A DNA stretch of 64,000 nt from Anaerolineae bacterium (GTDB lineage Bacteria; Chloroflexota; Anaerolineae; Aggregatilineales; Phototrophicaceae), in NCBI GenBank assembly GCA_023382675.1, contig JAHDWN010000003.1:156038-220037 (forward strand), written 5' to 3'. Both the position numbers and the translations under genes were made by a program. Every line of letters begins with the position of its first letter. The stretch's first letter is position 1. Positions 18,560 through 56,890 of the stretch are shown here, piece by piece. The notes under the pieces were generated by a model. The model was not told where the DNA came from and did not search any database. It saw nothing but the letters and a program-made list of their open reading frames with translations.

Positions 18560-18722
18560 TCAGATCTTCATCCCTGATAGAGTGTGATATGTAAACGGAT
18601 AGATGACATGCATCCAGCTTATATCCCAAGATCGCGTGTAACAAGGCCCACCCGACCTACATTCAGCGCCAGCCCATCAACTGCGGTTGCGTTACCTTTT
18701 GCGCTGTGGACACGATATAGAG

Positions 18723-19316
18723 ATGACAGAGCGGCGTCAGAAAGGATGTGACCGCGTGACCGTTCCGACGACGAAAGCAGCCAGCGACGACGCGCCCCTG
18801 GCCTTGATCGCCCAGACAGAGTCATCGGCGTTTGGCGAACTCTATCTCCGCCACACGGCGCGCGTCTACCGCTATATCTACATCCGCGTTGGGCAGGCGC
18901 AGCTTGCCGACGACCTGACAGCAGAGACATTCCTGGCAGCCTTCAAGAGCCTGGCGGCGTATCGGGAGCACGGGGCCTTCGCCGGGTGGCTGCTCGGCAT
19001 CGCGCGCAACGTGGTTGCCGATCATTTTCGTGCGCACAAGCCCAATCTCTCGCTCGATGCGCTCGGCGATCAGCCGGAGGATCAACCGTCGCCGGAAGAA
19101 AGCGTCGGGCAGCGCCTGGAGATCGAAAGCCTGCGCCGCGCGCTGCGCCACCTGACCGACGAGCAGGCAGAGGTCGTCCGGCTGCGGATGTTTGCCGAAC
19201 TCAGCACGTCTGAAACCGCCCGCTTGATGGGCAAGAGCGAAGCCGCGATCAAGATGCTGCTCCACCGCGCTCTGCGGGACCTGCGCCAGCACCTGCGGCT
19301 GGAGGAATCACGATGA
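18723..19316 (+). CDS. ECF-type RNA polymerase sigma factor
   Basis: AFGELYLRHTARVYRYIYIRVGQAQLADDLTAETFLAAFKSL (region 2); HLTDEQAEVVRLRMFAELSTSETARLMGKSEAAIKMLLHRALRDLR (region 4). Confidence 0.93.
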   Translation: MTERRQKGCDRVTVPTTKAASDDAPLALIAQTESSAFGELYLRHTARVYRYIYIRVGQAQLADDLTAETFLAAFKSLAAYREHGAFAGWLLGIARNVVADHFRAHKPNLSLDALGDQPEDQPSPEESVGQRLEIESLRRALRHLTDEQAEVVRLRMFAELSTSETARLMGKSEAAIKMLLHRALRDLRQHLRLEESR

Positions 19317-20728
19317 ACGATGAACGATCCAATGCCGACCGGTTGAGCCGCTCCATCGACCATCTGCACGCGGGCGAGGCTGACGACGCCGAGACGCCGG
19401 AAGCGCGGCTCGCCGCCGATCTGCACCGGCTGGCAGCCAGTATCGAGCCACCCGCCGACCTGATGCAGCGCTTGCTGCCGCCGCTGCACACCAATGGGCA
19501 ACCCGCACGACCTTACCACCACACAGTTCATGAGGAGAGACTGATGACTGCTGTACCCGCACACGCCCACGCTCAGGCAAAAAGCGCGCGCTTGCCGCTG
19601 ACGTTGGCGGCAGCGGCGGCCGCCGTCTTTCTGCTGCTGATCGTACTGCTCGGCCAGCCGAACGGCCAGCCGGTCGCAGCGCCGATTGTCGCCCAGGCCG
19701 CCACTGACACGCCCACGCCCATACCCACCGAGACGCCCACGCCAACCGCCGCAGCGGGGGTCATGCAGACGAGTCTGCCCCTGCCCGCCGGGGCTTACGT
19801 CGCTGATCTACGCCCTGAGACGCTCGCCCGGCTGCGTGCGACCGGCATGGAGTGGGTCGCCGTCAACCTGCCGTTCGAGATTCGTTCGGGCCTCGACAGC
19901 CTGGAACTGGCGAGCATGGTCATCAGCGCGGTTCATGCACAGGGACTGCGCATCATGCTCACGGTCACGGGCGCACCTCTGGATATGATGTCCCACCGTG
20001 AGACGTACACCCAGGATTACGCCAGCTTCATCGGCAGGGTGGCCGCGCTGTCACCAGATGCGATTCAAGTCTGGACCGAGCCGAACATCGACGTAAACTG
20101 GCTGACGGGTGAGATCAGCCCCTCGGCCTACGTGCAACTGCTCAGAGCGGCCTACGCCGCCATCAAAGCCGCCGATCCGAAAGTGATGGTGATCAGCGCC
20201 GCGCCCGCGCCGACCAGCGCACAGGCCATCGTCTCCGATCACGTCGTCAATGATGACACGTTCTACACGCTGATGGCGCAGGCAAACGCGGCCGATGTTG
20301 CCGACTGCATCGGCGTGCATTACGTCGAGGGCATCGTCCCGCCGGACGCGACCAGCGGCGACTCACGCGGCGAAACTGGCACACGCTATCTGGCGACGAT
20401 GCTGGAGCGCGCCGCCGCACCCTTCCGCGAGCGCGGTGATGATGTGCCGCTGTGCATCACCGAGTTGGGCTACGTCTCGCCGGAAGGCCTGCCGGAGCCG
20501 CTGCCCGACGATTTCGCCTGGGCCAACGAGACGACGCTCGCTGAGCAGAGCGCCTGGCTCGCCGGGGCTATCGACCTGATGAGCGGCCTGAGCAGCAGCC
20601 AGATCCGGCTCGTGCTCGTCTACAACTTCAACAGCGCCAGCCCGGCCATTTATGCACACGGCTACTCGATGCTGCGCCCCGACGGAAGCTGCCCCACCTG
20701 CGATGCGATTGCGGCGCTGCGCCGCTAG
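19313..20728 (+). CDS. Putative anti-sigma factor: cytoplasmic segment, one TM helix, Thr/Pro linker and GH-A-like (GH39/cellulase-superfamily-like) ectodomain
   Basis: ATGA overlap with ECF sigma stop; N-term DRLSRSIDHLHAGE...ARLAADLHRLAASIEPPADLMQRLLPPL; TM LPLTLAAAAAAVFLLLIVLLG; linker TDTPTPIPTETPTPT; VWTEPNIDVNWLTGEIS...ITELGYVSPEGLP. Confidence 0.8.
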   Translation: MNDERSNADRLSRSIDHLHAGEADDAETPEARLAADLHRLAASIEPPADLMQRLLPPLHTNGQPARPYHHTVHEERLMTAVPAHAHAQAKSARLPLTLAAAAAAVFLLLIVLLGQPNGQPVAAPIVAQAATDTPTPIPTETPTPTAAAGVMQTSLPLPAGAYVADLRPETLARLRATGMEWVAVNLPFEIRSGLDSLELASMVISAVHAQGLRIMLTVTGAPLDMMSHRETYTQDYASFIGRVAALSPDAIQVWTEPNIDVNWLTGEISPSAYVQLLRAAYAAIKAADPKVMVISAAPAPTSAQAIVSDHVVNDDTFYTLMAQANAADVADCIGVHYVEGIVPPDATSGDSRGETGTRYLATMLERAAAPFRERGDDVPLCITELGYVSPEGLPEPLPDDFAWANETTLAEQSAWLAGAIDLMSGLSSSQIRLVLVYNFNSASPAIYAHGYSMLRPDGSCPTCDAIAALRR

Positions 20729-23982: not shown

Positions 23983-26361
23983 CTACTTGCTGGCGCTCAC
24001 CGTGAGTACGAATGACCCGGCAAGCACATCGTCGTAGGTCGCTACCTCGATGATGATCGACTGGCCGGACGTGACCTGCAAGCCTGTCACCTGCGAGTTG
24101 ATCTGCTCACCAAGCTGGATGTCATCGTTTTCGGTGATCAGGGTGTCACTCTCGTCGTAGATGCGCAGGTAGGTGTCGAGCGCCCCTTCCGCATCCGTCA
24201 GCGAGATGTCAATCGCGCCATCCGCTTCCGGCACCAGCACGTAACGCACACGCTCACCCGCTGCGATCACGCCCTCGACGGTGTCGCCGACTGCGATGTC
24301 GCCGCCGTCAACCTGCGTGATCTCCGGCGCTGCGTTATCTGTGCCGACCACGCCGAGGGCTTCGTCGAGCACGCGCTCGCCGTACTGGAGCACGATATCC
24401 TGGTCGCCGATCACGTCTTCCGCTGTGACGGGAACACGCACATCCGGGACAATGCCGGTGCCTTCGATGATGACGTTGCCCTCGTTATCGACCGGGCGGC
24501 TGACAGGCAGCGCAATGCTCAGGCCGTCGGGCAGGTAGACTTCATCCCAACCGCCGCCCAGACCCGCGGTCGAGTACTGGCCGACGACGGTCGCGCGGTC
24601 TTGCTGGCTCATGTTGTAGGTGAAGAATTCACAGGCGCTGGCGCAGCCCGGCCCCACGAGCACCACGACCGGCCCGCTGAAGGCCAGGGCGGGGTTCTCC
24701 GCCGGGAAGATACGGGTCGGGAAGTTCGGGTCGCCGAAGAACTGGCCGCTTTCCGGGTTGTATTCCTCGCGGTTGCCCGCGACGAACTCCTGGTCGAAGA
24801 AGTAGCCCGCGATCCGGTCGCCGATCTGCGAGAAGCCGCCGCCGTTCTGGCGCAGGTCGAGGATGATGCCCTGCACGCCAAGCTGCTGCACCAGCCCCAT
24901 GAAGTAATCCCACGTTTCGATCATGACTGGCTCGTTGCCGTTGAACGACGTGATCTTGACGTAGCCATAGCCGCTGTCGAGGAACTCATATGTCAGCGGC
25001 GGCGCAAGGTTGTCGAACCCACGGTAGACCGAGCCGAAGGCGAAGCTGGCGCGTTCGTCGGTAGTCGCGATCGTCGCTGTCTCCGCCTGCGCGCCGGGGT
25101 TCTGGAAGGTGACTTCCGCCTCCGCGCCGAGCGGCGCGCGCGTCAGGTAGCGCACCTGCTGGTAGCGGTAGCCATCCGGGCTGCCGACGCCTGCGTAGGG
25201 CGCGACGGCATCGATAGCATCCTGGATCGACATGCCGCCGAATTCCAGGATTTCTGCGCCAACGCTGATGCCTGCCGCTTCCGCAGAGCCACCGGGCGTG
25301 ACGAAGACGACGACAACGCTGCCATCGCTCAACTCGCGCAGCGCCATGCCGTAACCGCCCGACGTTCCATCAAGGAAGCGATTGTCCAGGATGTTCGAGG
25401 GCATCTGCGGGAACTGCCAGTGACCATCCGGCACGTCGCGCGTCAGGGCGTCCAGCGCCAGGATGAACGAGTCGAGATCGCCATTGGCCTCAGCCTGTTC
25501 GACTTCGGGCAGATATTGGTCGCGCAGCGCTTCCCAATCGACGTTCTTCATCTCAGTGAAGGCGTATTCGTTCTTTGCCAGATCGATGAAGGCGTTGAAG
25601 GCCTCGGTGTAGGTCATGTCGCTGTAGTCTTCCGGCTGGAGTTCTTCCGGCTCGTGCAGTTCGACGCTGACCTCGTGCGAACGGTCGTAGGTGAACGGTT
25701 CGGACTCCATGTCGACGAGCGTCCAGCCTGCGGGGATCGCGACCGTCGGGTCGTCCTCCGTAAAGAGCAGGCCATCGTCGCCGAAGCCCGACGGGAAGCC
25801 CTGCTGATCATCCGGCGCGTAGACGAGATACTGACCGCCGATAACCTCGTAGAGTGTTTCCGGGTTGACGCTGGTGCGGGTGGTTGCATAGGCGGTTGAC
25901 CAGCTATAGCCATCGCGCTCGGTGATGAACGGATCGCCAAAGCGGTTGTCCCAGTAGGCGACGGTGTACACCTCGACGCCGCTATCGGTTTCGCCGTCAT
26001 TGTCGACGTCGTGCAGCGTCCCTTGCGGCGCGACGGGAAGATTCATTTCGAAGGTGATCACGGTGTCGGTATAAAAATCGTTGGTGATGGCCCCGAAGGC
26101 CTGCGATTCCACCGGGAAGGTGAATTCGACATTGCGGGTGACAAAGCCACCTTGATCTTCCAGCAAGATAATCGGCTGGACGGTGAGGTCGCGGATGTTC
26201 GGATTGGTAATCGTCATCGTTCCGGTGACAACTGCCACGCCGCCTTCGTCGGCTTCCATCTGGGCAGCGGGCAACATTTCCTGCGCCGCAGCAAGCGCAT
26301 TCACCGAGAGGATCAGGATGGCGAACAGCACCATCACCACATACAGACTGCGTTTCGGCAT
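23983..26361 (-). CDS. Secreted S41 family (C-terminal processing) peptidase with PDZ and C-terminal PPC-like domain
   Basis: Signal peptide MPKRSLYVVMVLFAILILSVNALAAAQE; GIILDLRQNGGG; VVLVGPGCASACEFFTYNM; C-term GALDTYLRIYDESDTLITENDD. Confidence 0.87.
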   Translation of the reverse strand: MPKRSLYVVMVLFAILILSVNALAAAQEMLPAAQMEADEGGVAVVTGTMTITNPNIRDLTVQPIILLEDQGGFVTRNVEFTFPVESQAFGAITNDFYTDTVITFEMNLPVAPQGTLHDVDNDGETDSGVEVYTVAYWDNRFGDPFITERDGYSWSTAYATTRTSVNPETLYEVIGGQYLVYAPDDQQGFPSGFGDDGLLFTEDDPTVAIPAGWTLVDMESEPFTYDRSHEVSVELHEPEELQPEDYSDMTYTEAFNAFIDLAKNEYAFTEMKNVDWEALRDQYLPEVEQAEANGDLDSFILALDALTRDVPDGHWQFPQMPSNILDNRFLDGTSGGYGMALRELSDGSVVVVFVTPGGSAEAAGISVGAEILEFGGMSIQDAIDAVAPYAGVGSPDGYRYQQVRYLTRAPLGAEAEVTFQNPGAQAETATIATTDERASFAFGSVYRGFDNLAPPLTYEFLDSGYGYVKITSFNGNEPVMIETWDYFMGLVQQLGVQGIILDLRQNGGGFSQIGDRIAGYFFDQEFVAGNREEYNPESGQFFGDPNFPTRIFPAENPALAFSGPVVVLVGPGCASACEFFTYNMSQQDRATVVGQYSTAGLGGGWDEVYLPDGLSIALPVSRPVDNEGNVIIEGTGIVPDVRVPVTAEDVIGDQDIVLQYGERVLDEALGVVGTDNAAPEITQVDGGDIAVGDTVEGVIAAGERVRYVLVPEADGAIDISLTDAEGALDTYLRIYDESDTLITENDDIQLGEQINSQVTGLQVTSGQSIIIEVATYDDVLAGSFVLTVSASK

Positions 26362-40954: not shown

Positions 40955-42535
40955 ATGCGCCGCATGAAGCCAAACACACTCACCCGACTGTTCGTTCTTC
41001 TTCTGACTATCGTCCTGATCGCGGGCTGCAATGCGCAGGCTCCGATCACGGTTTTTGTCACGCCGACGCTGCCGCCCTCGCCGACAGCGACGATTGCCGC
41101 CGCCACGTCTACCTACACAGCCGTGCCGACGGTGGCAGCGCAGGTGCAGCCCTCACAGACAGCAGGCGAGCCGCCGACCGAGGTGCCGACGCCGACCCCG
41201 GCAGGCAGCCCGGTCTTCGTTGGCCCGGTGATCGGGCCAGGCTACGTCGTACCGCCCTCCACGACACCCGTGCCGACCGCGACGCCAGAGGGCGGTGTGC
41301 CGACGGACACCGCCGCGCCGGTCGAGCCATCCGCGCCGCCGACCGTCGAGGCGCAGCCGCAGGCCGCCCCCGCCGTCATGCCCAACCTCGACCCCAACCA
41401 GATCGGTATTCAGCTCGACATCAACCTGGACGATCAGGACTGGAACGAGGCGATGGGGCGCATCGAGCAGCTTGGCCTCAAGTGGGTCAAGGTGCAGCTC
41501 CCCTGGCGCGACATGCAGCCGAACGGGCCGGATGAGCGCGACAACGAGTTCTTCCGCCGCATCGAGCAGCATCTCGAAGACGCCAACAATCGCGGCATGA
41601 ACATGCTCGTCAGCGTGGTCAAAGCGCCCACGTGGGCACGCAGCGTGCAGGCCGAGGATGGCCCGCCGGATGATCCGAATGCGCTCGCCCGCTTCTTCAC
41701 CATCATCTTCGAGGAATTCAACGCCGGGCTGAACCGGGAGATGGTCGGCGATTACATCGACGCCATCGAAATCTGGAACGAGCCGAATCTTCAGCGCGAA
41801 TGGCAGGGGACGCTGCCGTTCAACGGCGCGGGCTATATGCAGTTGTTCGGGCCGGCGTATCAGGCTGTGCGCGCCTACTCGCCGACAGTGACCATCGTCA
41901 CCGCCGGGTTAGCGCCGACCAGCACGCAGCCGTTCTCGGTCGATGACCGTGACTTCTTGCGCCAGATGTACGACGCCGGGCTGGGGCAGTATGGCGATGT
42001 CGTCGTCGGTGCGCATCCCTATGGCTGGGGCAATGCCCCGGATGCGCGCTGCTGCGGCTCGCGCGGCTGGGACGAAGACCCGCACTTCTACTACCTGGAA
42101 ACGCTCGATGCTTACCGCGCCATCATGAACCAGTTTGGGCACAGCGGCGTGCAGATGTGGATCACCGAATTCGGCTATGCCAGTTGGGATGGCTTCCCGC
42201 TCGACCCGCCGCAGCCGTGGATGTCGTTCAATGACCGCTGGGCGCAGGGCGGCTATACCGTCCGCGCGATCCAGATCGCCCAGGAGCGAGGCGACATCGG
42301 CGTCAAACTGCTGTGGAATCTCAATTTCGCTGTGCTCAGCGGCCTGATCGGCGGGCGCGATGAGCGCGCTGCCTACAGTATGCTCGTGCCCGGCGACGCC
42401 TGCCAGATCAACCCGGACAACGGTAACCACACCGAGCGCCCGATCTTCTGGATGCTGTTCGATGCCGTGCATCCGGATCAGGCGCTCACGGACTGGTGTG
42501 GTGTGCCGCCGAATGGAGTGCCTGGCCTGGGGTGA
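40955..42535 (+). CDS. Lipoprotein with Pro/Thr-rich linker and GH-A-like (cellulase-superfamily) domain
   Basis: LTRLFVLLLTIVLIAGCNAQ lipobox; TP-rich linker; AIEIWNEPNLQREWQ; MWITEFGYASWDGF. Confidence 0.85.
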   Translation: MRRMKPNTLTRLFVLLLTIVLIAGCNAQAPITVFVTPTLPPSPTATIAAATSTYTAVPTVAAQVQPSQTAGEPPTEVPTPTPAGSPVFVGPVIGPGYVVPPSTTPVPTATPEGGVPTDTAAPVEPSAPPTVEAQPQAAPAVMPNLDPNQIGIQLDINLDDQDWNEAMGRIEQLGLKWVKVQLPWRDMQPNGPDERDNEFFRRIEQHLEDANNRGMNMLVSVVKAPTWARSVQAEDGPPDDPNALARFFTIIFEEFNAGLNREMVGDYIDAIEIWNEPNLQREWQGTLPFNGAGYMQLFGPAYQAVRAYSPTVTIVTAGLAPTSTQPFSVDDRDFLRQMYDAGLGQYGDVVVGAHPYGWGNAPDARCCGSRGWDEDPHFYYLETLDAYRAIMNQFGHSGVQMWITEFGYASWDGFPLDPPQPWMSFNDRWAQGGYTVRAIQIAQERGDIGVKLLWNLNFAVLSGLIGGRDERAAYSMLVPGDACQINPDNGNHTERPIFWMLFDAVHPDQALTDWCGVPPNGVPGLG

Positions 42536-54800: not shown

Positions 54801-55403
54801 ATGCGTCGTCTGATCCTCGTCCTCACAGTTCTGCTGCTGTTAGCAATGTTTGCTCCGTCGGCGCTGGCGCAGACGGGCACGACCACTTACGTTGTTCAAC
54901 CGAATGACTCGCTCAGCGCGCTCGCGGCGCGGTATGGCATCACCGTTGACGCGCTCGCCGCCGCCAACAACATGACGGTCACAACCCGTCTGTATGTGGG
55001 ACAGAACCTGGTGATCCCGGTTGCCGCGCCGAGCGCCAATACGGGTTCGTACACGGTTCAGCGCGGCGACACGCTCGCCTCGATAGCGCGGCGCTTCAAT
55101 ACGACCACCCAGAATCTGATGCTCGCCAACGGCATCGCCAACCAGAACCGCATCTTTGCCGGGCAAACCTTGCGCGTGCCAGCAGCAGCAGTAGTGCAGC
55201 AGCCTGCGCCTGCTCAACCAGCGCCGTCGGGTAACTATGCCTCTGGCTATTATGCCTCTGGGCATTATCTCGTCCGTTATGGCGACACCATGCTGGGCAT
55301 TGCGCGCTATTTTGGCCTGTCTCCGTGGTCGATTGCGCAGGCAAACGGCATCTACAACTTGAATTTGATTTACGCCGGGCAGTGGCTGCGCATTCCGCGC
55401 TAG
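54801..55403 (+). CDS. Secreted protein with three LysM domains
   Basis: Signal peptide [111 protein letters not shown]. Confidence 0.95.
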
Positions 55404-55456
55404 ACGCTCCGCTCTGCAACATTTTATCGATACGTTCACCACAAGGAGTTCGCTTT

Positions 55457-56890
55457 ATGCGCCGCGTCCTGCTCATCGCAGCCTGTTTATTCTTACTTCT
55501 GGCCGTCGTCCCCCTGGCCTCCGCACAGCAGGGGCAGACCATCCATGTCGTGCAGCCGGGCGAGAACCTGTTCCGCATCTCCCTGCGCTATGGCGTATCG
55601 ATGGGCGCCATCGCCCAGGCGAACGGCATCGCGAATATTAACCTGATTTTTGTTGGCCAACGGCTGGTCATCCCTGGCGTCGGGGCGCCTGTCCCGACAC
55701 CCGTGCCCGCGACGCCGGTGCCCGGCGCGCCTACACCTGTGCCGCCAACGACAGGCACTTACGTAGTGCAGCGTGGCGACACGCTCTCCGCGATTGCGCG
55801 GCGCTTCAATACGACGGTGCAGGCACTGGCAGCCGCGAATGGCATCGCCAACCCGAATCTGATTTATCCCGGTCAGGTGCTCCAGGTGGGTGGTGGTGGC
55901 ACTGGCACAACTCCGCCGCCGGTCGTGACACCGCCGCCAGGGCCGCCCGTGACGACCGGATTCAGTCTCGGCGGTCACGTCTTTGGCTTCTCGTACCCGG
56001 ATCAGATGCGCGGCGCGGGCATGACCTGGGCCAAGACGCAGATCATCTGGAACCAGGGTGATCCGCCGAGCATCGTGCAAGGGGCGATTGACGCAGCGCG
56101 CTCGCGCAACTTCAAGATTCTGCTCGGCATCGTTGGCAACCCGGCGCAGCTCGCCGCCAACCCGACGCAGTATTACCAGGACTTCGCCAACTTCCTGGGC
56201 GGCGTCGCGAGTTTGAACCCGGATGGCATTGAAGTCTGGAACGAACCGAACATCGACCGCCAATGGCCTGCCGGGCAGATCAGCGGCCAGAACTACACGC
56301 AGATGTTGAGCGCCGCCTTCCAGGCGATCAAGCGCGCCAACCCGAACGTGCTCGTCGCCAGCGGCGCGCCGGCACCGACCGGCTTCTTTGGCAATCGCTG
56401 CACGGGCCAGGGCTGCGACGACAACGTCTTCATCCAGCAGATGGCGGCGGCAGGCGCAAGCCAGTTCATGGACTGCGTGGGCATTCACTACAACGAAGGC
56501 ATCCTGCCGCCCAGCGCCACCAGCGGCGATCCGCGCGGCAACAGCGGCCACTATTCGCGCTACTACACGAGCATGGTCAATCTGTATGCGAGTGTGTTCC
56601 CGAACAAGCCATTGTGCTTCACGGAATTGGGTTACATCACGCCGGAAGGCTATCCTGGCGGCCAGCTCCCCAGCGGCTTCGATTGGGGCCAGGGCAACAC
56701 GCTGCAGGAACAGGCCGAATGGCTGGCGCAGGCCGTGCGGCTGGCGCGCAACAGTGGGCGCATCCGTCTGATGATCGTCTGGAACGTCGATTCGACGACC
56801 ACCGGCGCTGATCCGCAGGCAGCCTACGCCATCGTGAGAGGCAACCAATGCCTCGCCTGTATCACCATGGGCGCGGCCATGGCAAATTAG
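55457..56890 (+). CDS. Secreted protein with two LysM domains and a GH-A-like (cellulase-superfamily) domain
   Basis: [94 protein letters not shown]. Confidence 0.93.

Follow-up and report, generated by a model that had tools for sequence, protein, structure and literature searches.

A coupled ECF sigma factor and membrane protein with a putative anti-sigma domain and a glycoside hydrolase-like ectodomain in Anaerolineae (Chloroflexota)

A draft genome (6.4 Mb) of a member of Anaerolineae (Chloroflexota) encodes an extracytoplasmic function (ECF) sigma factor whose gene runs directly into that of a membrane protein with a glycoside hydrolase (GH)-like outer part. This arrangement raises the question of whether the membrane protein is a receptor that controls the sigma factor or an enzyme that happens to share its operon. 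The locus was analyzed as part of a 64-kb stretch of this genome, referred to below as the window.

The sigma factor, its probable start codon, and its predicted promoter

The features of the locus are as follows.

18691-18717, + strand: predicted autoregulatory ECF promoter, with the -35 element GTTAC at 18691-18695, a 17-base spacer, and the -10 element CGATA at 18713-18717
18756-19316, + strand: ECF sigma factor with sigma2 and sigma4 domains (Pfam and NCBIfam matches; likely GTG start, judged from the promoter and the relative in genome G002)
19313-20728, + strand: single-pass membrane protein of 471 aa, a putative anti-sigma factor with a GH-like ectodomain (open reading frame; full-length relatives in three other genomes)
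19313-19492, + strand: putative cytoplasmic anti-sigma domain, residues 1-60 (alignment A1 of 29 coupled proteins; AlphaFold2 helices)
19592-19654, + strand: transmembrane (TM) helix, residues 94-114, N-terminus predicted inside (hydropathy; helix pLDDT up to 96; Lys/Arg counts)
19700-19762, + strand: extracytoplasmic Thr/Pro-rich linker TPTPIPTETPTPT, about residues 130-150 (sequence; low pLDDT)
19775-20725, + strand: clan GH-A TIM-barrel ectodomain, PslG/GH39-like, about residues 155-471 (profile, Foldseek, predicted structure)
20078-20080, + strand: E256, the acid/base residue in VWTEPN; secreted relatives have Asn directly before it, the window copy Thr
20462-20464, + strand: E384, the nucleophile Glu of ITELGY, kept in the window and replaced by Ser in genomes G057 and G065

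The TGA stop codon of the sigma factor gene (19314-19316) overlaps the ATG of the membrane protein gene at 19313 in an ATGA arrangement, so that the open reading frame coordinates agree with the overlap seen in the first-pass annotation. A co-encoded and translationally coupled regulator is one of the marks of an ECF sigma factor, and the ATGA overlap is also present in most relatives of this pair. The sigma factor matches the Sigma70_r2 (Pfam ID PF04542, 4e-14) and Sigma70_r4_2 (Pfam ID PF08281, 1.9e-12) domains, both above the cut-off, and has the sigma2 and sigma4 domains only, the composition that defines the ECF group. Its best-scoring NCBIfam subfamily is the BldN-like TIGR02952, with a score below the cut-off of that family.

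The ATG at 18723, initially taken as the start of the sigma factor gene, is probably not the true one: with the promoter at 18691-18717, transcription would begin at that ATG or right beside it, and in G002, the closest relative, the codon directly after the equivalent ATG is a stop codon. These two observations favor the GTG at 18756, which is in the same frame as the ATG at 18723 and would yield a protein of 186 aa, as the likelier start.

The pattern GTTAC-N16/17-C[GA]A[TC]A is found upstream of many sigma factor genes of this clade (L047 to L101), including the one in the window. The combination GTTAY-N17-CGA is present in 15 of 59 upstream regions, compared with a mean of 0.34 in shuffled sequences, and none of these 59 regions contains GTTAY and CGA at an N15, N18, or N19 spacing. 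With at most one mismatch allowed, the only match to the promoter pattern in the 64-kb window is the one at 18691-18717. A clade-specific -35/-10 autoregulatory promoter, another mark of ECF sigma factors, is thereby present at the level of sequence, and its sharing across the clade implies that these sigma factors would regulate their own transcription. This clade-wide promoter code also offers a handle for regulon prediction in an otherwise unannotated ECF clade of Anaerolineae. In a scan of the genome that contains the window, the strict pattern revealed no target besides the operon itself, and relaxing it to two mismatches yielded a single additional site, which was weak and had no convincing gene downstream. 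Given the single strict site, the regulon would be either small or dependent on looser sites. Promoter sites are few in G002, G057, and G065 as well, and the counts in G057 and G065 are comparable to those of reversed-pattern controls.

A putative anti-sigma family with varied ectodomains

The membrane protein had been described as consisting of a single TM segment, a linker, and a GH-A-like ectodomain, an anatomy borne out by the TM helix at residues 94-114 and a confident TIM-barrel prediction. Its cytoplasmic part is predicted to form helices at residues 2-19, 29-43, and 48-54 (AlphaFold2, pLDDT about 70 to 87). An alignment of 29 coupled proteins (A1) shows a conserved N-terminal core, LxxLAxxIxPDxxFxxxLExxL. 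Behind most sigma relatives, whether from the order, the class, or the phylum, this core is followed by one TM segment, usually with the ATGA overlap at its gene start. The motif is common to dozens of proteins with no GH domain, always encoded directly behind a member of this sigma clade; more distant sigma relatives are followed by proteins with other N-termini (DUF5667-like and others). Comparison of the window with G002 shows that the N-terminal 60 residues (dN 0.32, dS 0.58) evolve faster than the barrel or the sigma factor.

The ectodomains of this family vary and include lectin-like GH43_C2 (L083), WD40-like (L098), SAF (L066), and VWA-like (L050) domains, as well as unknown ones. The GH43_C2 concanavalin-like ectodomain (L083:2052-3014, 8e-23), from genome G471 of the class Anaerolineae, represents a second glycan-related module on the same sigma clade. 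The anti-sigma-like proteins of L050 and L053 have very long Thr/Pro stalks, and the one in L050 runs on into the VWA-like domain.

Lys and Arg are commoner before the TM segment than after it in 49 of 57 relatives; among the four GH proteins, this is the case in three, with equal numbers in the fourth. By the positive-inside rule, the N-terminus is predicted to be cytoplasmic, as the first-pass annotation had assumed. The anti-sigma-like character that it ascribed to this segment stands only in part: the segment is predicted to be cytoplasmic and helical and belongs to a sigma-coupled family, but it matches no solved anti-sigma structure, either in a profile search of PDB sequences or with Foldseek. 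The N-terminus of the window protein also has no match to a Pfam anti-sigma domain at E<1. From the co-conservation with the sigma factor and the helical prediction, we infer that residues 1-95 may constitute a sigma-binding domain.

Assignment to class I anti-sigma factors (ASDI/ZAS) was rejected, as there is no profile match and residues 1-95 contain no Cys, and hence no Hx3Cx2C zinc motif, which is itself present in only about half of class I members. RsbN, the class III anti-sigma factor of BldN in Streptomyces, is membrane anchored and uses three helices (PMC7406223, PMC8103513). The window pair resembles BldN/RsbN in that BldN is the best, if below-cut-off, NCBIfam family of its sigma factor and three N-terminal helices are predicted; RsbN itself turned up neither in the PDB profile search nor with Foldseek, and these searches lend no support to membership in class III.

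Origin and distribution of the GH-like barrel

The ectodomain is predicted to be a TIM barrel with pLDDT values mostly above 90. PslG, a GH39 enzyme of Pseudomonas aeruginosa with no link to a sigma factor, is its nearest relative by profile (E = 9e-15) and its best PDB match by Foldseek (2.8e-13), and this closest solved structure shares about 19% identity with it. The curated GH39 profile does not recognize the window protein, and Pfam yields mixed, weak GH-A matches below the cut-off. As for the traits of clan GH-A, the barrel is there and so are both catalytic residues that had been picked out from the sequence, the acid/base E256 in VWTEPN and the nucleophile E384 in the ITE motif; the Asn of the Asn-Glu acid/base pair (Asn255) is Thr in the window.

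Relatives of this barrel are found in all 151 genomes searched, often in at least 10 copies per genome. Most of those examined are secreted proteins that combine a signal peptide with Ig-like, LysM, or SH3 parts and have no sigma factor gene nearby; those of the main family retain the nucleophile Glu as well as the Asn-Glu pair. The barrel is best read as a descendant of this secreted GH family of the same bacteria.

Pairs of a sigma factor with a GH-bearing membrane protein were found at four loci (in the window and in G002, G065, and G057), which belong to two genera of a single family, and the sigma factor gene comes first in each of them. The co-conservation of the two genes, which the first-pass annotation had made a test of its proposal, thus holds at all four loci. 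The fusion is rare, with these 4 loci among 154 genomes of the order, and no further GH fusions were detected behind the best sigma-relative loci from the class (396 genomes) and the phylum (400 genomes). The cytoplasmic N-terminus is attached to a barrel only in these four proteins, each encoded directly behind the sigma factor, and none of about 30 examined GH relatives without this domain has a sigma factor gene within 1.5 kb. The gene order in G002 is the same as in the window, and the neighborhoods in G057 and G065 are unrelated to it. In phylogenetic trees, the four sigma-linked GH domains form one clade (support values 100/99), and the four sigma factors form another (98/94) together with a fifth one, L052, whose coupled partner opens with the same N-terminal motif and then runs off the contig. 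Because the GH domains and the sigma factors each form a clade and the flanks differ, the data point to one fusion event, with the fused gene probably inherited along with its sigma factor.

The four copies differ in their catalytic sites. That of G002 is intact (equivalents of Asn255, E256, and E384), the window copy has Thr in place of Asn, and those of G057 and G065 have Ala in place of Asn and Ser in place of the nucleophile. Accordingly, N255 is lost in three of four sigma-linked copies and E384 is replaced by Ser in two, and such changes are seen only in sigma-linked copies. A further column, N338, is occupied by Asn in 26 of 26 secreted relatives and by Val in 4 of 4 sigma-linked copies. 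Taken together, the four active sites suggest that catalysis has been lost in part. A Fisher test at three thresholds detected no significant clustering of conserved-column changes at the barrel mouth (p = 0.21, 0.38, and 0.14). Divergence between the window and G002 indicates purifying selection on both the barrel (dN 0.15, dS 0.71) and the sigma factor (dN 0.15, dS 0.63). That three of the four copies have lost residues of the catalytic site is in keeping with a sensing role, and the ectodomain probably derives from a sugar-cutting enzyme whose task has shifted from glycan cleavage to glycan sensing.

A proposed switch, its rivals, and known counterparts

We interpret the pair, with a probability of roughly 0.7, as a two-gene ECF sigma/anti-sigma switch with an enzyme-derived, glycan-sensing ectodomain. 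For the window pair, we infer sigma binding, a glycan ligand, proteolytic release, and a regulon along the following lines. The short helical cytoplasmic domain of the membrane protein would hold the sigma factor at the membrane, and the extracytoplasmic GH-A barrel would bind (or slowly cleave) a polysaccharide. Binding would alter or destabilize the anti-sigma factor, probably via regulated proteolysis, and free the sigma factor, which would then transcribe its own operon from GTTAC-N17-CGATA, as well as further genes. The genome also encodes an M50 site-2-type protease, a kind present in nearly all bacteria. The same cells secrete related barrels, which makes a glycan attacked by those enzymes a sensible initial candidate for the ligand. 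More tentatively, and at slightly less than even odds, the pair may belong to a class-wide Anaerolineae family that combines one ECF clade and its own promoter code with an anti-sigma domain whose brevity and divergence put it beyond the reach of current profiles and with interchangeable ectodomains, among them hydrolases that lose catalysis and become receptors.

A true sigma/anti-sigma switch could also use the barrel as a scaffold for detecting a protein, a peptidoglycan fragment, or envelope stress, and not a glycan. The same anti-sigma family does bear many ectodomains of the non-glycan kind (SAF, WD40-like, VWA-like, and unknown), and several catalytic and conserved barrel residues have been lost. 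We nevertheless consider this version unlikely, given that the barrel is under purifying selection, with 54 of the 91 conserved columns of the secreted enzymes unchanged in all four sigma-linked copies, and that GH-bearing anti-sigma factors elsewhere bind polysaccharides (PMC3526467, PMC4711584). It is less probable still that the protein is a functional glycosidase, anchored in the membrane, that merely shares an operon with an otherwise regulated sigma factor and has an ordinary cytoplasmic tail as its N-terminus. An active enzyme is possible in the window and in G002, where both catalytic Glu are intact, and its secreted relatives abound in every genome searched; yet the copies in G057 and G065 have no nucleophile and have kept the sigma factor, and the N-terminal motif is shared with proteins that have no GH domain and lie directly behind the same sigma clade. 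All these genomes are draft assemblies, which leaves a very slight chance that the two genes are accidental neighbors or an assembly artifact. Against this, the ATGA coupling is repeated in three other genomes on independent contigs, and chance adjacency is excluded because the pair recurs in four genomes whose flanking genes differ.

The sigma factor σ24C of Clostridium thermocellum is of the ECF type. Its partner in the σ24C/Rsi24C pair (Cthe_1470-1471) has a catalytically dead GH5 ectodomain; this module is missing its acid/base residue and attaches to crystalline cellulose (PMC3526467, PMC3990059). The window pair has the same layout, a sigma factor adjoining a membrane anti-sigma factor with an extracellular GH-A module, and the catalytic-site residues missing from some of its copies have a parallel in the loss reported for Rsi24C-GH5 (PMC3526467); unlike Rsi24C, it comes from another phylum and has a PslG/GH39-like barrel instead of GH5. 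RsgI6-GH10 of C. thermocellum likewise resembles the putative anti-sigma factor described here: it has one TM segment and an extracellular GH10 that is almost inactive but can bind xylan and cellulose (PMC4711584). However, SigI has no sigma4 (PMC6056542, PMC4711584), whereas the window sigma factor has both sigma2 and sigma4 and its partner shows no RsgI_N match, for which reasons membership in the RsgI family was rejected. In ECF52 and ECF53 sigma factors, a membrane extension with an outside carbohydrate-binding domain is fused to the sigma factor (PMC8999054); in the window, the sigma and anti-sigma factors are separate proteins. Taken in its strong sense, the proposal of this pair as a candidate for an undescribed signaling system is not supported, as Rsi24C-GH5 and RsgI6-GH10 already demonstrate the principle (PMC3526467, PMC3990059, PMC4711584). 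By analogy, its working principle would be that of the GH-bearing anti-sigma factors of C. thermocellum, with Rsi24C-GH5 as the direct precedent. Our literature search found no described case of such pairs in Chloroflexota.

The window pair would be the second instance of an enzyme turned receptor in sigma/anti-sigma signaling, on a different GH family. Among its four copies, the active site is intact in one, partly altered in another, and without its nucleophile in the remaining two, which opens the step from enzyme to sensor to direct testing.

Several neighboring genes may be mentioned as well. An S41/tricorn-type protease (Pfam ID PF03572, 1.7e-30) with a PDZ domain is encoded at 23983-26361 on the - strand of the window. 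It lies downstream of the pair at a distance of about 3 kb, in an order that is kept in G002. In G057 (L118:9403-13392), inspection by eye revealed genes 2 to 6 kb from the pair that we take to encode a glycosyltransferase and apparent heptose-biosynthesis enzymes (GmhA/GmhB-like). The window itself contains two paralogues of the GH barrel, both on the + strand, a LysM-GH protein at 55325-56890 and another at about 41312-42403.
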